The notes beneath the pieces are model-generated. The model had not been told where the DNA came from. It searched no databases and saw only the letters and a program-made list of their open reading frames with translations. Both the position numbers and the translations under genes were made by a program. 60,403 nt of DNA, from contig JAFQRY010000005.1 of the NCBI GenBank assembly GCA_017409845.1, positions 1 through 60,403 on the forward strand, given 5' to 3'. The DNA is from Clostridia bacterium (GTDB taxonomy: Bacteria; Bacillota; Clostridia; Oscillospirales; Acutalibacteraceae). Shown piece after piece: positions 51,089 to 60,403 of this stretch; positions within the stretch are counted from its first letter, which is position 1; each line of letters opens with the position of its first letter.

Positions 51089-51099
51089 ATCGGAATATA

Positions 51100-51166
51100 T
51101 CAAAAATTACAAAAAACATGTCAAAAATTACATTTTTTACAAAAGGCTGAATTTTTGCGTTATCAT
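51100..51166 (+). promoter_or_regulatory. LytTR-type direct repeats and promoter of the 25-residue peptide, copy 1
   Basis: TCAAAAATTACA occurs at 51100-51111 and again at 51121-51132, a 21-bp period, which puts both on the same DNA face. A TATCAT -10 box is at 51161-51166, with no -35 box at 17 bases, as for activator-dependent promoters. Two direct repeats with about 12-bp spacers upstream of a weak promoter is the layout of LytTR-regulator sites. A LytTR regulator is encoded at 53857. The same arrangement recurs at 60266-60332. Confidence 0.75.
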
Positions 51167-51225
51167 GCAGATGTCAACGGGGAACACCACCCGAAAAACA
51201 AACAATGAAAATGAGGTAATGAAAA

Positions 51226-51303
51226 ATGGTAACAGTAGCAACAACAGCAATCATTTGTGTAGCAGCAGTAATGGCAGTCGCAATCGTCTGCAGAGCATTT
51301 TAA
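51226..51303 (+). CDS. 25-residue hydrophobic peptide
   Basis: ATG 51226 behind GAGGTAATG. It begins MVTVATTAII and ends AVAIVCRAF, a single predicted membrane helix with two Cys and one Arg near the end. The same leader, ribosome site and first codons (ATGGTAACAGT) recur at 60393, which supports this start and frame over a longer overlapping frame. It could be a small membrane regulator, a signal or bacteriocin-like peptide for the ABC exporter, or a leader peptide. It is too small for family assignment. Confidence 0.65.
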   Translation: MVTVATTAIICVAAVMAVAIVCRAF

Positions 51304-51326
51304 TTGAGAAGGAAGGGGTAATCATT

Positions 51327-51689
51327 ATGAAAAAGATAGTAACAATAGTTCTTGTAATCGCAGTAATCGCAGGTGTGATTTCCTACGGCGTTGATGAGCT
51401 TTCTTCGGATAACAGCTATAATAATTATTATGTCCATGACACATACGATACGCATGACACACACGACACATACGGTTCATATGGCTCATATGATTATTAC
51501 GAAAGCTATATACCGCAGTCATATAACTGCATTCTGTGCAACAACACCGGCAAGGTTTCATGTAACTATTGCTACGGCATGGGCTATAAAATGATTGATG
51601 CTCCCAACTACGGCGGCGGCTATAAACCTTCGGAAAAGGTTGACTGTGCTTATTGTGTTGACGGCGAAGCGGACTGCACTCTTTGCTGA
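51327..51689 (+). CDS. Membrane-anchored protein with DnaJ-like CxxC zinc motifs
   Basis: 120 residues from ATG 51327, behind GGAAGGGG. One N-terminal helix (about 4-21), an unusual linker of repeated HDTYDTHDTHDTYGSYGSY, then four CxxC pairs (CILC, CNYC, CAYC, CTLC), the first two with NTGKVSCNYCYGMGY resembling the CxxCxGxG cysteine repeats of DnaJ. The metal site would lie outside the membrane unless inverted. It follows the 25-residue peptide by 23 bases and is likely co-transcribed. His/Asp-rich linker plus Cys pairs suggest metal binding; function unknown. Confidence 0.72.
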   Translation: MKKIVTIVLVIAVIAGVISYGVDELSSDNSYNNYYVHDTYDTHDTHDTYGSYGSYDYYESYIPQSYNCILCNNTGKVSCNYCYGMGYKMIDAPNYGGGYKPSEKVDCAYCVDGEADCTLC

Positions 51690-51713
51690 GCACATTTTAA
51701 TAAACGGAGGGTG

Positions 51714-51757
51714 AGAAACCGGAGACGCTCTGGCGGGCGTTCTTCGGTTCTTTTTTG
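51714..51757 (+). terminator. Probable terminator
   Basis: GAAACCGGAGACGC pairs imperfectly with GGCGTTCTTCGGTTC, followed by TTTTTTG. Confidence 0.65.
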
Positions 51758-51788
51758 AGATTTTTATTCTCTTCTTTTTCTGCTTTCG

Positions 51789-51817
51789 TTGACAAATTGC
51801 GATTTGCAAATTATAAT
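51789..51817 (+). promoter_or_regulatory. Consensus sigma-A promoter of ABC/LytTR/FHA/kinase operon
   Basis: TTGACA (51789-51794), 17-base spacer, TATAAT (51812-51817), perfect in both boxes. A 110-base leader follows to the ATPase start. Confidence 0.87.
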
Positions 51818-51927
51818 GTATATAATTATAAATTAATGATACTTTTTATTACAAAATGTTGCTCGGTAAATACATCCGTAACATGTTTGCGGCTTGTGAG
51901 TAAATGGAGTTGTGAAAGGAAAAAACT

Positions 51928-52653
51928 ATGATATCGGTTTCCGGCGTTTCAAAATCCTTCGGCAAAAGTAAAATCATCAAGGATATTTCCTTTGTTGCCG
52001 AAGCAGGAAAAATAACGGGTCTTATCGGTGCAAACGGCTCGGGCAAAACAACAACGATGAGACTCATTTCAACCATTTTAAAGCCCGATTGCGGAAGCAT
52101 TCTTGTTGACGGTGCAGATGCCGTCAATGACCCTTCGGGTGCAAGAAAAAATCTCGGCGTACTTTTCGGCGGCGATGTTTCGCTCTATAACAGACTTTCC
52201 GCATGGGAAAACATCATGTATTTTGCGAAGCTTCAGGGCATGAGCGACGAAGAAGCGGAGCAGAGAATTAAAATTCTTTCTAATCTTCTTGATATGGATA
52301 AATTTCTTTTCAAGCGCGTGACGGGATTTTCGAGAGGTATGCGTCAGAAGGTTTCGTTTGCAAAATCAATAGTACACAATCCTTCTGTGATTTTGCTTGA
52401 TGAGCCCTCGACGGGTCTTGATATTTACAGCATAAGAGATGTGCAGGATTTCATTCTTACCTGCAAGGAGCAGGAAAAAACCGTTCTTGTTTCAACCCAC
52501 AATATGCACGAAATCGAGCGTCTGTGCGATAATCTTGTTATTATCGCCGATGGCAGAATAGTCAGAAACGGAACAAAAGAAGAAATCCTCAGAAATGAAG
52601 GAACAGATGATGTTATGGAAATGTTCTTTAAAATTGCGGAGGGCTCAGACTGA
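51928..52653 (+). CDS. ABC transporter ATPase, NatA type
   Basis: 241 residues, GAAAGGAAAA upstream. Walker A GANGSGKTT, Q-loop region GVLFGGDVSLYNRLSAWENI, signature FSRGMRQK, Walker B VILLDEPSTGLD and H-loop STHNMHE. It resembles NatA of Na+ or small-molecule/peptide efflux ABC-2 systems. TGATG overlap with the permease gene. Confidence 0.93.
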   Translation: MISVSGVSKSFGKSKIIKDISFVAEAGKITGLIGANGSGKTTTMRLISTILKPDCGSILVDGADAVNDPSGARKNLGVLFGGDVSLYNRLSAWENIMYFAKLQGMSDEEAEQRIKILSNLLDMDKFLFKRVTGFSRGMRQKVSFAKSIVHNPSVILLDEPSTGLDIYSIRDVQDFILTCKEQEKTVLVSTHNMHEIERLCDNLVIIADGRIVRNGTKEEILRNEGTDDVMEMFFKIAEGSD

Positions 52654-53834
52654 TGTTTAATGATTACATATTGATTCTCAAAAAAGAGCTGACGGATATT
52701 TTCAGGGACCGACGCAGTATAGTTACTCTGTTTATTCCCGTTCTGCTTTTTCCGCTGATGTATTTCTTTATGGGTACTCAGCTCAGCGGAGGAAATCTGA
52801 CAGAGAATATTCCCTGCATTGTTGACTGCAGAACCGACGGGGATCGCGAGCTTTACGAAGCGATATTTGACGGCACGAACATGATTGAAGAGGTTGATAT
52901 TCAGGAAGATAAATATACCGACCTCAAAAAAGGCGGAGTTTACGGAATTATCGAAATCGACAACGGAAAAATCACCGTTGTTTTCAATCAGAATTCAACC
53001 AAAACGCTCACTTCGATGAGCCTTATAAACGAAAGAGTTGTTCTTTTTTCAAATTCTCTTTTTCAGCAGTCGTTGGTTGACCAGGATGTTGATTTTGAAG
53101 CACTCGACTCTCTTGACTATAACGGTGCAATGACCGACCTTTCGGAGATTATATCCGATACGGGCAATTCAATGATGGCTTCAATTGCACCGATGATGCT
53201 TGTAATGGTGATAATGAGCGGCGGTGTTTCCGTTGCGGTTGACCTTTTTGCAGGCGAAAAGGAAAAGGGAACCTTTGAAAGCCTTCTGACAACTCAGGTA
53301 AGCCGACTGGCTCTGCTTATGGCGAAGTTCACGGCAATACTTATTATCAGCCTTATGAGCATGGTTCTTTCAATTGCGGCTTATGTCATTTCTTTCAAGC
53401 TTAACCCCTCGGCACTGGGCATGTATACGGGAAATCTCAATGCCGATGCAAGCGACCTGCAGATTATAACGCTTCCGCAGGTGCTTCAGGTGCTCCTCGT
53501 ATGCTTTGCACTTTCGGTTTTTGCCGTTTCGGTAATGACCTTCATAGGAATAAATGCCAAAACGGTAAAGGAAGCACAGTCACAGTCGAGCATGATAACG
53601 ATTATCCCCACACTTCTGAGCGGACTTACAATGTTTATGGACAGTGCAAACATAAGTGATGCATCAATGCTTATTCCCGTTTTCAACACAATCGCATCAA
53701 TAAAAATGGTTTTTCTCGGAACGGTTCAGCCGCTTCATATTGTTTTATCAACCGTGTCGTGTCTTGCATACTCGGGCGTGCTGTGGTTCCTGTGCGTAAG
53801 AATGCTCAACAGCGAAAAGCTTCTCAGAGGATAA
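52653..53834 (+). CDS. ABC-2 type permease, NatB-like
   Basis: 393 residues, translationally coupled to the ATPase. First helix about 22-40 (SIVTLFIPVLLFPLMYFFMG), then an extracellular domain of about 130 residues, then five further helices from about residue 175 (SMMASIAPMMLVMVIMSGGVSVAVDLFAGEKEKGTFESLLT). The EKEKGT(F/L)ESLL box is typical of NatB/ABC-2 exporters. Substrate unknown; the neighbouring peptide genes make peptide export one option. Confidence 0.9.
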   Translation: MFNDYILILKKELTDIFRDRRSIVTLFIPVLLFPLMYFFMGTQLSGGNLTENIPCIVDCRTDGDRELYEAIFDGTNMIEEVDIQEDKYTDLKKGGVYGIIEIDNGKITVVFNQNSTKTLTSMSLINERVVLFSNSLFQQSLVDQDVDFEALDSLDYNGAMTDLSEIISDTGNSMMASIAPMMLVMVIMSGGVSVAVDLFAGEKEKGTFESLLTTQVSRLALLMAKFTAILIISLMSMVLSIAAYVISFKLNPSALGMYTGNLNADASDLQIITLPQVLQVLLVCFALSVFAVSVMTFIGINAKTVKEAQSQSSMITIIPTLLSGLTMFMDSANISDASMLIPVFNTIASIKMVFLGTVQPLHIVLSTVSCLAYSGVLWFLCVRMLNSEKLLRG

Positions 53835-53856
53835 AAATTTTCCGAGGTGTTATTAA

Positions 53857-54573
53857 GTGTTAAAAATTGCTGTGTTTGATCTTGAACAAAGTGCAGAAAA
53901 ATTTGAGGATGTGCTGGTCAATATCCTTTTCGACAAATGCGAATTCGGATTTGAAGCCTACACCAATCCCAAGGAAGCACTTGAAATTGATTTTAAAAAT
54001 GATTTTGACTTCGATATTGTTTTTATCGAAATCAACTCCCAGAGATTTCCCGGAATAGAAGTAGCAAAAAGAATCCGAGAAAGCGGCAACATCAAATCCG
54101 AAATCATCTTTGTTTCCGATGACGATTCGTTTGCACTTTACGGCTATAAGCTGAAGGTGTTTGATTATCTGCTCAAGCCCATTCCGATAAAAACAATCGC
54201 AGAAACTCTTGACAGATATTTTTGTTACTTTGAATCGGATGACGATAATTATTTTTCTTTTAAGGTTTCGGGTTCGATTCAGAAGCTGCGTCTTGATGAT
54301 ATTTTCTATTTCACGAGCAACGGCAGAAAATGCATTGTTGTCAACAAAAGGGCAGACTGCGAATTTTATTCGAAGCTTGACGAAATAGAAGCTCAGCTTG
54401 ATGCCGATGAATTCATCAGGGTGCACCAGAGCTATATAGTCAACATACGCTGCATAAAAAGCCTGACCAAAGACGGGCTGACAATGAATAACGGTTTGTT
54501 TGTGCCCGTAAGTCAGCGAAGGCACGCCGAAGTCAAAAGCAAATTTATGAAATATCTCGAAATTGAAGAATAG
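53857..54573 (+). CDS. LytTR-family response regulator with Glu at the phospho-acceptor site
   Basis: 238 residues from GTG 53857, behind GAGGTG. Receiver domain 1-120: KIAVFDLE, DFDIVFIEINSQRFPGIEVAKRIR, IIFVSDDD, VFDYLLKPIP. The usual acceptor Asp (..FLDI..) is Glu 58, while the conserved Lys 107 is kept, so the receiver may be locked in an active-like state. LytTR DNA-binding domain 130-235: FSFKVSGSIQKLRLDDIFYFTSNGRKCIVV, FIRVHQSYIVNIRCIKSL. No histidine kinase is nearby. The direct repeats at 51100 and 60266 are its likely targets. Confidence 0.88.
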   Translation: MLKIAVFDLEQSAEKFEDVLVNILFDKCEFGFEAYTNPKEALEIDFKNDFDFDIVFIEINSQRFPGIEVAKRIRESGNIKSEIIFVSDDDSFALYGYKLKVFDYLLKPIPIKTIAETLDRYFCYFESDDDNYFSFKVSGSIQKLRLDDIFYFTSNGRKCIVVNKRADCEFYSKLDEIEAQLDADEFIRVHQSYIVNIRCIKSLTKDGLTMNNGLFVPVSQRRHAEVKSKFMKYLEIEE

Positions 54574-54586
54574 GAGACCGGAAGAT

Positions 54587-55282
54587 ATGAAAGAGGTTAA
54601 AAGACTTATAAGATGCGATAACGGACATTTTTTTGACGGCGGAAAATATGATGAATGTCCTCATTGCAACAATAAAAAGACGCCTGAAATCACAGTTTTC
54701 GTGCCCGAAGCGAAGAATGAAAAAGATTATAATGAAAGCAAATATAATTACGGCGGACCTTTATATAATCCTCCTGAAGCTTCTGCAGATGATCCGGAGG
54801 ATACCGTCAGCAAAATCACCGAAGAAGAAAAGAAGCCCGAGCCTGCGATAAAAGCGGCTCCCAGATTCTATGAAGAAAAGCCTTCAAACGGACACACCGT
54901 TCATTATTTCCAGAAGGCACTCGGAACCGAACCCGTTGTAGGTTGGCTTGTTTGTGTTGAAGGAATACATTCGGGCGAGGATTTTAAAATCAAGAGCGGA
55001 CGCAACTTCATAGGCAGATCGGGTGATATGAATATCAGCCTCAGCGGCGACAGAACCGTTTCGAGGGATAAGCACGCCATCCTTACCTATGACCCCAGAA
55101 GCAACACCTTTGTTATTCAGCCCGGCGAATCTGCTGAGCTTACCTACCTTAACAACGAAGCTGTGCTTGTGCCTACAAAGCTCAAGCTTAACGACAGAAT
55201 TGCTCTGGGCGAAACCGAGCTTATATTTGTGCCTTTCTGCTCCGACGATTTCAGCTGGGAGAAGCAGAAGCACGAAAACTGA
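54587..55282 (+). CDS. Zinc-ribbon/FHA-domain protein
   Basis: 231 residues from ATG 54587, behind AGGAG. N-terminal single zinc ribbon (RCDNGHFFDGGKYDECPHC), acidic Pro-rich linker (about 25-110), then an FHA domain (GRNFIGRSGDMNISLSGDRTVSRDKHAILTYDPRSNTFVIQPGES) with the phosphothreonine-binding GR...S..H pattern. It would read phosphorylation by the downstream kinase. Cytoplasmic. Spaced 13 bases after the LytTR gene. Confidence 0.87.
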   Translation: MKEVKRLIRCDNGHFFDGGKYDECPHCNNKKTPEITVFVPEAKNEKDYNESKYNYGGPLYNPPEASADDPEDTVSKITEEEKKPEPAIKAAPRFYEEKPSNGHTVHYFQKALGTEPVVGWLVCVEGIHSGEDFKIKSGRNFIGRSGDMNISLSGDRTVSRDKHAILTYDPRSNTFVIQPGESAELTYLNNEAVLVPTKLKLNDRIALGETELIFVPFCSDDFSWEKQKHEN

Positions 55283-55297
55283 TTATGGAGAGATACT

Positions 55298-55642
55298 ATG
55301 AAAATATTTAAAAAATCGGGAGATACCTTTGTTGGTTCGATAATGGGCCTGAGCGGCACATATGCGGATGCAATTTTCAGAATCGACCCCGATGAAAATA
55401 TAACCATCGGGCGTGACCCGAAAACCTCTCAGATTGTTGTTGATGAGGGCTGCGAGCTTGTCAGCAGAACTCATTGCACCGTCAGAGGCAATGCCAGAAC
55501 TGGTCAGTACAGCGTTATAGACCATTCAAAAAACGGAACCTTCGTTAACGGAGAAAGACTTCCGTGCGGAGTGATGGTTTCCGTGCCGAGAGGGTCGGTT
55601 TTATATATCGGCGACAGACAGAATTCCTTCAGACTTAATTGA
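55298..55642 (+). CDS. Stand-alone FHA-domain protein
   Basis: 114 residues, GGAGAG upstream. Nearly the whole protein is an FHA domain: ITIGRDPKTSQIVVDEGCELVSRTHCTVRGNARTGQYSVIDHSKNGTFVNGERL, with all key residues (GR, S-R-T-H, N-G-T-F-V-N). It binds phosphothreonine peptides. Located between the first FHA gene and the pseudokinase gene. Confidence 0.92.
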   Translation: MKIFKKSGDTFVGSIMGLSGTYADAIFRIDPDENITIGRDPKTSQIVVDEGCELVSRTHCTVRGNARTGQYSVIDHSKNGTFVNGERLPCGVMVSVPRGSVLYIGDRQNSFRLN

Positions 55643-55665
55643 TTTCCGGGAGATGACATTCTTAA

Positions 55666-56751
55666 ATGAACTATGATAATCTTTGCATGTCCTGTTTCCG
55701 TGAGGCGGGCGATGAAATCTGCAAATACTGCGGATATGTTGAACCGGAAAAGAGAAGAAGCTCTCTGCTGCCTGCAAGAACTCTGCTTAACTCACGCTAT
55801 CTCGTAGGAGAGGTTACGGGTGTTGATAAATCCGTGGTTGAATATAAAGCATGGGATACCGTTAACAACTGCATGGTGGAAATTCAGGAGTATTATCCGA
55901 GAGGAATTGCTTCCAGGGATTCGGGCTCTCTTGATGTGACTGTCACATCGCAGGATGACCGCGATTCCTATAAAAAGAATATCCGCACCATCAGAACGAA
56001 TGCGGTTAAAATGCAGTCTTTTTCGGGCTCGCCCTATATTGTCAACATATTCGACTGCTTTGAGAGCTATAACACCGTTTATATCGTCAAGGAATATATC
56101 GAAGGCATGCTTCTGAGCGATTTTATTGAATCATACGGCGGAAAGGTTGATACGGAGACGGCGGTTTCCATAGCTGTTCCCGTGCTTGAGGGGCTTTCTC
56201 AGCTTCATAAGGCGGGGCTCGTTCACCGTGCAATATCTCCGAAAAGTATCATTATAACCACCGACAATGAAATAAAAATCAGCAATTTCCGTTTCCTCAA
56301 GGATGCATCGCCTTATAAAGACGAAAACATGACGGTTCATTTTTCGATAGGCTTTGCACCTCCCGAGCAATATAAAACGAGAAGCAAGCAGGGTGCCTTT
56401 TCTGACATATATTCGGTCGGTGCCGTTCTTTATAAAATGCTTACTGGCGACAGACCCGATGATGCACTCGAGAGAATGAGTGCGGATAATCTTGTTTCAC
56501 CCAAAAGTCTTAATCCCGATATTCCCGACAGCGTGAGCATATCGGTTATGAAGGCACTCAACATGACTCCTGAGCTTCGCTTCAAAACAGCGGCGGACTT
56601 CAAAAACTGTCTTCTCGAAAAGAAAGAAGTTGTTGATGTTGACAGCGAGCTTATAAACATGAAAACAAAAAAATTCAACAACACCACGATAGCTCTTCTT
56701 GCTCTTGTGGTTGCTGTTGCAGGTATCATTATATATTTTCTTTTGGATTAA
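55666..56751 (+). CDS. Zinc-ribbon pseudokinase with C-terminal membrane anchor
   Basis: 361 residues. Zinc ribbon Cys 7, 10, 19, 22; kinase-like domain about 40-310; C-terminal helix 340-360. Compared with the downstream kinase at matching residue numbers, the ATP-site Lys 74 is Gln (VEIQEYYP against VAVKEFFP), HRD 187-189 is HRA, DFG 207-209 is NFR, and the glycine loop is lost (GEVTGVDKSV). All catalytic residues are gone but the fold is kept (FAPPEQYKTRSKQGAFSDIYSVGAVLYKMLTG). It may be an allosteric partner or decoy of the active kinase. The start ATG has only a distant GGGAGA. Confidence 0.88.
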   Translation: MNYDNLCMSCFREAGDEICKYCGYVEPEKRRSSLLPARTLLNSRYLVGEVTGVDKSVVEYKAWDTVNNCMVEIQEYYPRGIASRDSGSLDVTVTSQDDRDSYKKNIRTIRTNAVKMQSFSGSPYIVNIFDCFESYNTVYIVKEYIEGMLLSDFIESYGGKVDTETAVSIAVPVLEGLSQLHKAGLVHRAISPKSIIITTDNEIKISNFRFLKDASPYKDENMTVHFSIGFAPPEQYKTRSKQGAFSDIYSVGAVLYKMLTGDRPDDALERMSADNLVSPKSLNPDIPDSVSISVMKALNMTPELRFKTAADFKNCLLEKKEVVDVDSELINMKTKKFNNTTIALLALVVAVAGIIIYFLLD

Positions 56752-56776
56752 TCCTTCAATATGAGGAGTTGATTAA

Positions 56777-59700
56777 ATGCAGCGTTGTTTCGGTTGCATG
56801 AGAGAATTCGGAAAGCAGTATGAGGTTTGTCCGCATTGTGGATATGTTGTGGGTACTGCCCCGAAAATAAAAAGCCATCTGTTCTGCGGAACGGTTTTGT
56901 CGGGCAGATATATGCTCGGCAAGGTGCTCGGTCACGGCGGCTTCGGCATCACATATATTGCGTGGGATAAAAAGCTCAACAGGCCCGTTGCGGTCAAGGA
57001 GTTTTTTCCGAATGCACTTTCAACGAGAAGTGAGGGCGAAACCCATGTTTCGTGCTATGACGATAAAGCATCAAAATTCTTCCGTGACGGTGTGAGAAAG
57101 ATGCTTGATGAGGGAAACCGTCTTTCAAAGTTCACAAACAACGAAAATATAGTTGATGTTTATGACTGCTTTGAGGAAAACAATACCGCCTATATCGTCA
57201 TGGAATATCTTGACGGAAAGGACCTGAAAAAGTATCTTGAAGAAAACGGAGGAAGGCTTGCACCCGAAAAAACGGTTGAAATTATCATGCCCGTGCTCAA
57301 TGCACTTGAAGATATGCACGATGAAAAGCTTATTCACCGTGACATATCGCCCGATAACATTTTTCTTTGCAAAAAGGGCGGTGTGAAGCTGCTTGATTTC
57401 GGTTCGGCAAGACTTGCGGTTGAGGACAGCGATAAAAGTCTTTCCGTTATGATAAAAAGGGGATATGCACCCAAAGAGCAGTATGCAAGCCGCTCGAAGC
57501 AGGGACCGTGGACGGATATTTATGCCGTGTGTGCAACGCTTTATAAAATGATAACCGGAGCACTTCCGACCGAAAGTATAGAGAGGGATGAAGAACCTCT
57601 CAGAAGATTTTCGGAATTCGGCATCAGGGATTGTAATGCTCTCGAAAAGGTTGTATTCAAAGGCCTCGAGGTCGATTATGCCGACAGATTCCGGTCTGTT
57701 TCCGAGCTCAGAGAGGCATTGAACAGCTCGATAGGCAATGTTTCCGTGCCTGCACCTGCAGATTCCGGAAAAAAGCAGGAGCCCTCAAAAAAAGCGGATA
57801 TACCTCCTGTTCAGGTGAAAAACATCATTCCCGAAGCACCTCCAAAGCCGAAAAAGAAAATCAATATAAAAGCGATAATCGCCGCTGTTGCCGCAGTTGC
57901 GGTTGTTGTCGGTGCGGCTTTTGCAATTAAAGCGATTAAAATAAAGGTTGATTCGGAGAATGGTGCAGGAACAACGACATCCAGCCCCACCAAGGTTGAG
58001 GAGCAGGGACTTTTAACGGGAATGAATAACGAGGCGAGTGAGGAAATGATTGCAGAAGCTTATGAAGCGTATGCTGCATATATTGCACCTTTCAGCGGCA
58101 AGGATAAAGACGGCAACAGCAAAATATCGGATGCATATGTTGTTGATCTTGATAAAAATAAAATTCCCGAGGTGATTTTTACATATTACGGTTCACACAA
58201 TATGTATATTCTTTCATACGGTGAAAACGATGGCTTGAGTGTTATTTCTCCGGTTTTGCATTCCTCAACACCTGCCGAGGTTTATTTCTCAGAGGATAAC
58301 GGCATTTTATATTACACCGATTCGGGTCATAATCAAGGCACGGCATGGTATCACGAGGGCGTATGCCTCAAAGCGACCGAAGAGGGCTTTGAAACGGTCG
58401 GAACTGTTTCGGGCGATGCGTGGGATAATGTGTCGGAAGAAATATGGCAGGATGATGACCTTTTCACAAAAACAGATAAGCAATATGACGAAGCTTTTGA
58501 AAAAAGCATGAAGGAGCTTATCGGTGACGGTGAGTATACCGATTTCTTTGATGTATGCGAAAGCGAGAATGCCGAAGAATATCTTGAAGAAAAGCTTTCT
58601 GCTGATTTTAACGAAAAGAAGAATGAGTATACACAGTTCAAACAAACTGCTGTTTCGGCACTCGGAGAAGAGCCCTTGTCAATCCTTGTTGACGACTACG
58701 ACAGAAACGGCACCTACGAAGCTTTTGCGGTTGTAGGCGAAAAAAGCGAATATGCCGAGAATCTTCGTGTGGGACGAGTATGGTTTATTTCCGATAAAGC
58801 AGAGGCATCAGCGGTTTCTGAAGAAAATTATTATTGGATTGATGAAAAACTTGAGTGCCAATATAATACTTATTATCAGATCCATGTTGATGCAGGTTCA
58901 TGGTCGCCATCGGAAGTCTGGATGGTCAACGGAAGCAAATGTGAAGAAATTACTGTTTTCAACGAAAACGGCGTTGAGTATTTTGAAAAAAAATCGGTCA
59001 ACGGATATTCAAATTCCATTGTTGCGAAGGCAAGCAGATTTGATGCTTTTCTGACAGATGTTTATGATATTGACAGCGGGAGTCGTCACACTCACAAACC
59101 TTATTTCTTTTATGACACTCCTGACGGAATCAAAGAATACGGCGGAATTGAAATAACAAAAGCTCAGTTTGAAGCTCTCGGTGGAACTTATTATGTTGAT
59201 TTGATAGAAAGCAGCGGCTGCACGATTCACAGTGTATATGCCCGAGATAATGGAATAATCAATGTCAATTATTATGAAAATGACGGCGAAGATAGTTTCA
59301 TTTGTGATTATATAAATCTTAAAATAACAAGCAATGGTGTTTATGCAATCAGTTATGAGCTTTGGGCTGCCGCTACCCCATATACAATAGAAGAACGTGA
59401 AAGTGGTACAGGAATTTATGAAGCAGCCGCCGTTCCCGAGATTGCAACATATCCTGAGAATTATGAGTCAGGTTCAACATCAAAAGAAGCTGAAACTCAG
59501 CCCGTTTCAAACGATGCATGGAAAGAGGCATATCTTAATGTGTTGAGGAATGAAGCTCCGAAAAGCGAAAGAAGAACAGGGGAATACAGATTTTCTCTTG
59601 GCTATGTGAACAATGATGATATTCCCGAGCTTTTCATTTCGGAGGGCGGTGCACATGCTTACGGTGTTGAGGTTTATACATATCATAACGGAAAAGCTGT

Positions 59701-60052
59701 AATGTTGTGCAGTGACGGAGAATTCGGTTCTATCGGATATATGGAACGAAAGGGTTATATCTGTGGCTCGTATACAGGTATGGGAACAACAAGTGCACGT
59801 ATTTATGAAATGAAGAACGGAGAAGCAGAGATTATTTATACTCTTTATGATGATTCCGGAGCTGTTCCCGAGGGCGGAGATGTTGTTCGCACAATCAATG
59901 ATGTCAATGCTTCCGAAAAAGAAATCAATGAGTTCTCTGAAAAATATTTCGGAGATAACACAACATATTTCGGTTATGAAAGCGAAACCAATCCGGGCTA
60001 TGAACCCACCGAAGAAAACTATAAAAAGTATATAACCGATTTTGAAGGATGA
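56777..60052 (+). CDS. Zinc-ribbon transmembrane Ser/Thr protein kinase with extracellular sensor
   Basis: 1091 residues, GAGGAG upstream. Zinc ribbon Cys 4, 7, 18, 21; kinase domain 43-320 with GHGGFG (52-57), VAVKE (Lys 74), HRDISPDN (187-194), DFGSA (207) and YAPKEQYASRSKQGPWTDIYAV, so active. A Pro/Lys-rich linker leads to a membrane helix (about 364-386). The extracellular part of about 700 residues has at least three modules with an Asp-rich turn then IPE: DLDKNKIPEV, DYDRNGTYEA and NNDDIPELF, perhaps calcium-binding repeats. This is the PknB-like layout with an unusual sensor. It would phosphorylate ligands of the two FHA proteins. Confidence 0.92.
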   Translation: MQRCFGCMREFGKQYEVCPHCGYVVGTAPKIKSHLFCGTVLSGRYMLGKVLGHGGFGITYIAWDKKLNRPVAVKEFFPNALSTRSEGETHVSCYDDKASKFFRDGVRKMLDEGNRLSKFTNNENIVDVYDCFEENNTAYIVMEYLDGKDLKKYLEENGGRLAPEKTVEIIMPVLNALEDMHDEKLIHRDISPDNIFLCKKGGVKLLDFGSARLAVEDSDKSLSVMIKRGYAPKEQYASRSKQGPWTDIYAVCATLYKMITGALPTESIERDEEPLRRFSEFGIRDCNALEKVVFKGLEVDYADRFRSVSELREALNSSIGNVSVPAPADSGKKQEPSKKADIPPVQVKNIIPEAPPKPKKKINIKAIIAAVAAVAVVVGAAFAIKAIKIKVDSENGAGTTTSSPTKVEEQGLLTGMNNEASEEMIAEAYEAYAAYIAPFSGKDKDGNSKISDAYVVDLDKNKIPEVIFTYYGSHNMYILSYGENDGLSVISPVLHSSTPAEVYFSEDNGILYYTDSGHNQGTAWYHEGVCLKATEEGFETVGTVSGDAWDNVSEEIWQDDDLFTKTDKQYDEAFEKSMKELIGDGEYTDFFDVCESENAEEYLEEKLSADFNEKKNEYTQFKQTAVSALGEEPLSILVDDYDRNGTYEAFAVVGEKSEYAENLRVGRVWFISDKAEASAVSEENYYWIDEKLECQYNTYYQIHVDAGSWSPSEVWMVNGSKCEEITVFNENGVEYFEKKSVNGYSNSIVAKASRFDAFLTDVYDIDSGSRHTHKPYFFYDTPDGIKEYGGIEITKAQFEALGGTYYVDLIESSGCTIHSVYARDNGIINVNYYENDGEDSFICDYINLKITSNGVYAISYELWAAATPYTIEERESGTGIYEAAAVPEIATYPENYESGSTSKEAETQPVSNDAWKEAYLNVLRNEAPKSERRTGEYRFSLGYVNNDDIPELFISEGGAHAYGVEVYTYHNGKAVMLCSDGEFGSIGYMERKGYICGSYTGMGTTSARIYEMKNGEAEIIYTLYDDSGAVPEGGDVVRTINDVNASEKEINEFSEKYFGDNTTYFGYESETNPGYEPTEENYKKYITDFEG

Positions 60053-60055
60053 AAA

Positions 60056-60088
60056 ACGGGCTGTCGTATAAAGACAGCCCGTTTTTTG
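60056..60088 (+). terminator. Rho-independent terminator of kinase operon
   Basis: AAACGGGCTGTC pairs with GACAGCCCGTTT, followed by TTTTG. Confidence 0.88.
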
Positions 60089-60120
60089 ACTGTCGATAAA
60101 ACAAAAACCAAACTGAAACA

Positions 60121-60211
60121 CCGTAGGGGACGACCTCAGTGCCGTCCCGTTCCTGCTTAGCCGATTATATAAAATGTGCAACTATGCGTAGGGCGGGATG
60201 CCTTCATCCTG
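60121..60211. repeat. REP-like palindromes
   Basis: Two GC-rich elements: CCGTAGGGGACGACC with GTGCCGTCCCG (60120-60150), and GTAGGGCGGGATG with a degenerate inverse CATCCTG (60186-60211). The second shares its core with 15733-15758 and 22887-22915. Confidence 0.7.
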
Positions 60212-60265
60212 ATGCGTGTATTTTCGCTCATTCAGCCCTTTTTCTCAACGTTTTTAAAAAACACA

Positions 60266-60332
60266 TCAAAAATTACAAAAAACATGTCAAAAATTACATT
60301 TCGCACAAAAGATGAAAAAATTGCGTTATTAT
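60266..60332 (+). promoter_or_regulatory. LytTR-type direct repeats and promoter, copy 2
   Basis: TCAAAAATTACA at 60266-60277 and 60287-60298, again with a 21-bp period, and a TATTAT -10 box at 60327-60332. The stretch 60266-60403 is a close copy of 51100-51236, including a GTCAAC(A/G)GGGAACACCACC leader segment. Confidence 0.78.
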
Positions 60333-60392
60333 ACAGATGTCAACAGGGAACACCACCTGAAACAAATAAACTTTGAAAATGAGGTAGAGAAA

Positions 60393-60403
60393 ATGGTAAC
60401 AGT
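60393..60403 (+). CDS. Start of a second hydrophobic-peptide gene, cut by window end
   Basis: ATGGTAACAGT behind GAGGTAGAG is identical to the first 11 bases of the 51226 gene and has the same leader. The rest lies outside the window. Confidence 0.55.

Follow-up and report, generated by a model that had tools for sequence, protein, structure and literature searches.

A LytTR regulator with a pseudo-receiver, encoded among Ser/Thr kinase and FHA genes, and its predicted regulon of tiny membrane peptides in Clostridia

A seven-gene block with a pseudo-receiver regulator

The stretch of DNA analysed here, which we call the window, is exactly one whole contig of 60,403 nucleotides (JAFQRY010000005.1) from the Clostridia bacterium assembly GCA_017409845.1. 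Towards its end lies a block of seven genes, NatA-NatB-LytTR-FHAa-FHAb-pseudokinase-kinase, all on the + strand (51928-60052). The LytTR regulator of this block has lost the phospho-acceptor Asp of its receiver, and the subject of this report is the possibility that it takes its input from the Ser/Thr kinase and FHA proteins encoded beside it and controls a set of genes for tiny transmembrane peptides. The original prediction had listed these genes in this order behind one consensus promoter. Both points are borne out, the genes by Pfam and the promoter by a perfect sigma-70-type TTGACA-17-TATAAT (51789..51817, + strand), read from the sequence, which precedes the block. It had covered neither the pseudo-receiver nor the LytTR boxes, and neither the regulon across the genome nor the PP2C gene present at five of the six other loci.

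Following the promoter are a NatA-like ATP-binding cassette (ABC) ATPase (51928..52653, Pfam ABC_tran), a NatB-like ABC-2 permease (52653..53834, ABC2_membrane_3) and the LytTR regulator (53857..54573, Response_reg and LytTR). FHAa, with a Cys-rich N-terminus (54587..55282, FHA), and FHAb (55298..55642, FHA) come next, and after them the pseudokinase (55666..56751, Pkinase), in which a C-terminal hydrophobic segment was recognized by eye. The last gene (56777..60052, Pkinase) encodes a Ser/Thr kinase composed of a Cys-rich N-terminus, a kinase domain, one transmembrane segment and an outer domain of ~690 residues. No histidine kinase is found among the 10 window proteins scanned with Pfam.

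The LytTR DNA-binding domain of the window regulator scores 76 bits against PF04397 (cut-off 22.6). In the receiver, the phospho-acceptor column (window residue 58) holds Glu in all seven system proteins, that is, the window protein and the six orthologs described below, and all seven have also lost the second acidic residue; both positions are Asp in each of 18 other LytTR regulators, fetched by a search of same-genus relatives. Ser/Thr87 and Lys107 are retained in the system proteins. With Glu at the acceptor position and the second acidic residue gone, normal histidine-to-aspartate transfer is not expected. The predicted structure, usable over about residues 1-89 (mean pLDDT 53.5), places Glu58 at the end of the third strand, the position expected for the acceptor Asp.

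The predicted pairing of a pseudokinase with an intact kinase was confirmed: the pseudokinase is without the beta-3 Lys, the HRD Asp and DFG, and the kinase has all three. Loss of the Lys, the HRD Asp and an intact DFG recurs in 5/5 pseudokinase orthologs, and the active-kinase motifs (VAVK, HRD, DFG) are kept by the window kinase and by the other system kinases where that stretch is present. The motifs are not kept in L076:7962 and L078, two further kinase-like proteins encoded in the same genome. The phosphothreonine-binding residues of FHAb, intact in the window, are kept in 9/9 aligned sequences; in FHAa the Arg and Ser/His are kept in nine of ten. Of 19 kinases, 18 have a predicted hydrophobic segment, the exception being one kinase of genome G759.

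A direct-repeat box and the genes behind it

Upstream of the block lies a gene for a 25-residue hydrophobic peptide with a single transmembrane segment (51226..51303, + strand), which has a Shine-Dalgarno-like sequence and no Pfam family. The duplication of its leader, claimed in the original prediction, is real: 103 nt at 51094 and 60260 are 84% identical. Each copy contains TCAAAAATTACA-N9-TCAAAAATTACA, a pattern that occurs seven times in this 2.53-Mb genome and not at all when read backwards. The corresponding LytTR-type direct repeats, at 51100..51132 before the first peptide gene (two 12-mers with a 21-bp period) and at 60266..60298, both on the + strand, score E 1.3e-21 and 3.7e-23 with R1, a sequence-only promoter model for which both were training sequences. 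Fifteen promoters align almost gap-free from box to leader, and in them the second repeat begins 40 bp before the -10 element (TATCAT at 51161..51166, + strand, in the window), which stands at a fixed distance from the box; no -35 consensus was seen by eye at the first peptide promoter. The 21-bp period of the 15 aligned promoters leaves the gap of 12 bp that is typical of the sites of LytTR Regulatory Systems (LRS), and this gap agrees with known LytTR sites, which according to the available text of PMC6193735 mostly have 12 bp between 9-bp repeats. In one genome sub-group the stretch between box and -10, where a -35 would be, is taken up by an almost perfect inverted repeat, ACAACCCGC...GCGGGTTGT (L048:1510-1570; L049:287-347, - strand; L049:5641-5700; L049:7905-7965; L050:7561-7620); this repeat is possibly the site of a second regulator.

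A relaxed score found 18 boxes in 259 kb of collected loci, a count that includes one locus twice and one overlapping frame, and none in five window-shuffled copies, which went through a small pre-filter. R1 itself was trained on sites from the window's own genome, from genomes G008, G549 and G512 and from loci L048 and L050, and was run on 12 genomes with 150 candidates scored in each. At E<=1e-3 it found 30 sites in the five genomes that carry the LytTR protein (own genome 7, G008 4, G512 10, G549 2, G719 7) and one in G759; in six same-genus genomes without the LytTR protein there was none, the best value being 0.0365. This co-occurrence strongly supports the view that the LytTR protein acts on the box, presumably by binding it, and the predicted control of the peptides by LytTR gains support in the same way.

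Half of the 30 sites precede peptide genes, two of which are cut after 11 nt by contig ends; among these 15, a kinase gene is next in two and a gene for a subtilase with leucine-rich repeats in one. Eleven others precede genes for secreted, lipo- or membrane proteins, as judged by eye, and the remainder precede a kinase gene alone (one), a NatA operon (two) or nothing (one). The predicted regulon would accordingly comprise tiny transmembrane peptides, kinases, and secreted proteins or lipoproteins. The subtilase locus, L135:1014-4269 (G719, contig C76), consists of a box promoter, a tiny peptide and then a secreted subtilase of 1026 residues with leucine-rich repeats.

The peptides were selected by their first four letters, a length of 21-30 residues and a hydrophobicity above 1.2. 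The list, which leaves out small open reading frames failing these limits (one each in L137 and L048, and one of 38 residues in L045), skips locus L124 as a repeat of L049 and may count some copies twice where contigs end (L132/L135; C1, C3), holds 42 genes and 31 distinct peptides of 22-29 residues, with 14 complete copies in the window's own genome. Nonsynonymous/synonymous ratios are 0.06-0.45 in four groups, which, with the Shine-Dalgarno-like sequences, indicates that the peptides are translated and under purifying selection. Five peptides scanned against Pfam gave nothing above cut-off and one weak match, to DUF1072 (E 0.12). The 5' leader of the first peptide gene (51167..51200, + strand) can form a short hairpin, CGGG...CCCG (CAGG...CCTG in several other copies). 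Most of 21 leaders fold such a hairpin, with exchange of G-C for A-U from one copy to another; L045, L046, L049c, L132 and, as cut, L134 show it weakly or not at all.

The outer domains of the kinases are diverse: three of 32 other kinases and regulon proteins resemble that of the window kinase at E<=1e-3, one of them a regulon lipoprotein, and the AlphaFold model of the outer domain is too poor for use (pLDDT 43). The lipoprotein (L136:985-1722, G719 contig C84) matches the later part of the window kinase's outer domain (34% identity, 119 residues), and by this similarity a putative sensor domain is common to the two proteins.

Between the first peptide gene and the block promoter, a gene (51327..51689, + strand) encodes a 120-residue protein with an N-terminal hydrophobic segment and four CxxC pairs, which probably shares the transcript of the upstream peptide gene. 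Its Cys pairs are DnaJ-like; it belongs to no Pfam or NCBIfam family and has no match among the compared loci. At the other end of the block, the second leader and the start of a second peptide gene (ATGGTAACAGT, 60393..60403, + strand) are cut by the contig end. Four contig ends of this genome (C1, C3, C21 and C34) fall within the leader/promoter repeat, so that the window probably runs on into another peptide locus; on C1, a peptide locus of this kind ends with a kinase gene. Rfam at gathering scores gave 0 matches in 40000-60403.

Orthologous loci and Asp-bearing relatives

Scanning the genome collection for the LytTR protein yielded eight loci, of which six are orthologous (65-78% identity) and two, L051 and L052, were dropped as weak partial matches; with the window this gives seven loci. 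All six orthologs are in metagenome-assembled genomes, titled Clostridia, Oscillospiraceae or Ruminococcaceae, and three of the titles mention gut samples of roe deer or goat. Of the six contigs, four belong to G008, G549, G719 and G512. Among 36 same-genus relatives only G008 has an ortholog (78%), other matches being at most 31% identical. Profile searches found an ortholog in one of 394 sampled genomes of the order and in four of 398 sampled genomes of the family, the latter with five diverged matches in addition.

Conservation of the gene neighbourhood was the check by which the original prediction proposed to be judged, and the neighbourhood is conserved: LytTR, FHAa and FHAb are linked in 7/7 loci, and NatA, NatB, pseudokinase and kinase surround them in five (the window, L047, L048, L049 and L050). 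NatA is 79-90% and NatB 49-79% identical in the four other loci. A PP2C gene is adjacent in five of the seven loci: in L047-L050 it separates the pseudokinase gene from the kinase gene, and in L045 it follows FHAb. None adjoins the block of the window or that of L046. The nearest PP2C gene of the window's own genome (C29:77369, 48% identity) lies in a separate cluster (L076:1029-18412; C29:75028-92411) which encodes WXG100 proteins, two PP2C phosphatases, four kinases that share the Cys-rich type, and an FHA protein with 45% identity to the domain of FHAa. By sequence, the cluster is a putative sister module of kinases and FHA protein, located close to genes for type VII secretion. The window itself was rejected as a type VII secretion locus, there being no WXG100 protein among the 10 window proteins scanned; the WXG100 cluster is the separate one on C29.

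One of the diverged matches, in G759 (36% identical), is surrounded by FHA, PP2C and kinase genes, and its acceptor residue is Asn. It is part of a larger cluster of FHA, PP2C, kinase and von Willebrand-domain genes (L090:244-9778), with a weak box (R1, E 0.0046) between the LytTR and PP2C genes.

The diverged matches in a genus here called g216 were rejected as members of the system, as they bear the acceptor Asp (4/4) and stand beside histidine-kinase genes. They are AgrA-type LytTR two-component systems with a similar DNA-binding domain and nearly the same box: their LytTR domains are 35-43% identical to that of the window, compared with 20-30% for the 18 other regulators and 44% for G759, and their receivers are 24-28% identical, compared with 15-30%. 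Four g216 genomes have a LytTR match, and in three of them (G651, G749 and G706) a box precedes an operon of an Asp-bearing LytTR gene and then a histidine-kinase gene (L091, L093, L094), the kinase being checked by its GHKL domain in L091 and assigned by position and size in the other two. The system of the window differs from these in having neither the Asp nor an adjoining histidine-kinase gene. The similar DNA-binding domain and near-identical box, together with the histidine-kinase partner in g216, suggest that the input has been swapped and the output is common. A tree groups the seven system proteins with G759 (99/98); the joined long branches were flagged, and the place of g216 is not settled.

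Input to the LytTR protein

We consider it rather probable (about 60%) that these genes encode a Ser/Thr-kinase/FHA-controlled pathway for the cell envelope in which a pseudo-receiver LytTR protein works without a histidine-to-aspartate relay. An outside signal would be sensed by transmembrane Ser/Thr kinases, whose outer domains vary. These kinases would transfer phosphate to threonines of their own, of the membrane-anchored pseudokinase and/or of the LytTR protein, and PP2C would undo this phosphorylation. The FHA proteins would read the phosphothreonines and so hold or release the LytTR protein, which would bind the paired repeats of 21-bp period, the second starting 40 bp upstream of the -10, and switch on operons of tiny transmembrane peptides and secreted or lipoproteins and, in a feed-forward loop, of further kinases. 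We infer that LytTR activates rather than represses. Kinase and FHA input to LytTR is suggested by synteny, the loss of the acceptor, the linked PP2C gene and the precedents discussed below. Synteny, lost phospho-Asp and PP2C give indirect support to that part of the earlier working model in which the kinase senses and the FHA proteins relay. The model survives except in its last part, in which the exporter handles the peptides and which is weakened by the genomes considered next; the roles of the peptides and of NatAB in the pathway are likewise presumptive.

Several observations weigh against this pathway. NatB at E<=1e-20 has no match in the draft genomes G008 and G549, two of the five peptide-bearing genomes, and an obligatory exporter of the peptides was rejected as a general rule. 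Neither genome has a kinase match of pseudokinase size, and G008 (88% complete) has no close kinase: its only match at E<=1e-40 is 33% identical and resembles in size a kinase that is degenerate in the window's own genome, an orthology judged from size and score. NatAB, the pseudokinase and a close kinase are therefore not obligatory. What both genomes keep is LytTR, FHAa, FHAb and peptides behind a box, and these would form the minimal shared core. In 10/10 aligned FHAa sequences the FHA motif is missing its first Asn-Gly. In ComE, a response regulator of the LytTR type, Thr128 presumably lies in the linker between receiver and LytTR domain; the linker of the system LytTR proteins holds no invariant Thr. 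The promoter model was trained partly on the same genomes as it scanned; in favour of the pathway, G719, which contributed no training site, has 7 sites, the best at 1.6e-18. In 398 family genomes, where ten first-look candidates per genome were scored under stricter filters and absence elsewhere is of limited weight, 23 had an R1 match at E<=1e-3. All matches below 1e-7 lie in the four genomes with the LytTR ortholog, G719 among them, which also speaks for the pathway; of the 394 genomes without a close ortholog, 19 have weaker matches (E 3e-7 to 1e-3), the best (3.2e-7 and 1.1e-6) in g216. In the g216 genome G484 the box and the LytTR gene are on different contigs. Finally, one strong exact box of the window's own genome (L043:5662; C6:62630-62661, - strand) has its -10 and no gene directly behind it. 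This box faces the end of metK and could belong to a decayed locus or an unannotated RNA.

The loss of the acceptor can also be read in the manner of the LRS, in that LytTR would be constitutively active, its Glu mimicking phosphate, and be held at the membrane by FHA proteins and pseudokinase, so that signalling would alter only its sequestration or dose and LytTR would not be phosphorylated. The LRS (HdrRM and BrsRM of Streptococcus mutans), as described in the available part of PMC6193735, have a LytTR regulator without phospho-Asp, direct repeats mostly spaced by 12 bp and a membrane inhibitor, and some are linked to ABC transporters. The lost Asp and the repeat spacing of our system fit this, and five of the seven loci encode a pseudokinase whose C-terminus is hydrophobic. 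However, the receiver fold is retained here, with Glu, the pseudokinase is absent from two loci, and in place of an LRS-type membrane inhibitor gene after LytTR the FHA genes come next in 7/7 loci, accompanied by kinase and PP2C genes. We find this reading unlikely.

Two further alternatives concern the peptides. They could be transmembrane partners that tune the kinases, like small membrane proteins that regulate sensors, and in three loci (L037, L038 and L125) the peptide genes stand directly before a kinase gene; most of the other peptide loci examined, however, have no kinase gene behind the peptide, and we give this idea about as little credence as the previous one. Still less credible is that they are secreted membrane-active agents, akin to phenol-soluble modulins or bacteriocins, exported by NatAB when kinase signalling triggers their production. 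Short, leaderless and hydrophobic peptides in many copies behind LytTR-type boxes, beside an ABC-2 exporter, would suit such a role. Phenol-soluble modulins, however, are amphipathic, charged helical peptides, whereas 31/31 distinct peptides, in a set picked partly for hydrophobicity, carry 0-2 charges and have a hydrophobic moment of at most 0.32, values that do not support amphipathic peptides of that kind; nor is the absence of NatB from G008 and G549 easily accommodated. Redox control by a disulfide dimer through Cys28 of the pseudo-receiver, as in HP1021-type regulators and with the kinase genes as bystanders, appears quite improbable: Cys28 is present in 7/7 system proteins and 0/18 others and lies 19 residues past position 9, matching the Cys at DD+19 named for redox-regulated regulators in the available part of PMC12632262, but the diverged G759 protein, also beside FHA and PP2C genes, is without it and the 7/7 linkage to FHA genes would go unexplained.

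The proposed kinase/FHA pathway has precedents for its parts. In Mycobacterium tuberculosis, the Ser/Thr kinase PknB phosphorylates the membrane pseudokinase MviN, which recruits the FHA protein FhaA; that system acts on peptidoglycan synthesis, and the accessible text (PMC12599244) names no LytTR regulator. In Streptococcus pneumoniae, the Ser/Thr kinase StkP acts on a response regulator, phosphorylating ComE at Thr128; ComE works also with the histidine kinase ComD, and FHA proteins are not mentioned in the portion of PMC6010298 available. PknF-Rv1747 of M. tuberculosis likewise joins a Ser/Thr kinase, in a two-gene operon, to an ABC transporter with FHA domains; it differs in that these domains are part of the transporter, and LytTR or peptide genes go unmentioned in the text available (PMC3908365, PMC5549992). 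In the literature searched, LytTR together with 'FHA domain' was not found and no such system is described; the main text of a review of pseudo-receivers mentions neither LytTR nor FHA.

The component families are known, and the pathway is a new arrangement of them. More tentatively, and at somewhat less than even odds, the LytTR input has been switched from a histidine-kinase phosphorelay to Ser/Thr kinase, pseudokinase and FHA proteins, which would make this dedicated, operon-encoded system with its own tiny-peptide regulon a new kind of bacterial signalling system. The gene-switch wiring found in these uncultured gut bacteria appears to be undescribed in the literature searched. A pseudo-receiver regulator is at hand here together with the genes of its likely input and a defined DNA site, and its Asp-bearing relatives have nearly the same site, so that the question becomes testable with purified parts. 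If the pathway is real, Hanks-type kinases would gain a dedicated transcription factor, and a family of membrane peptides of 22-29 residues would gain an assigned regulator.

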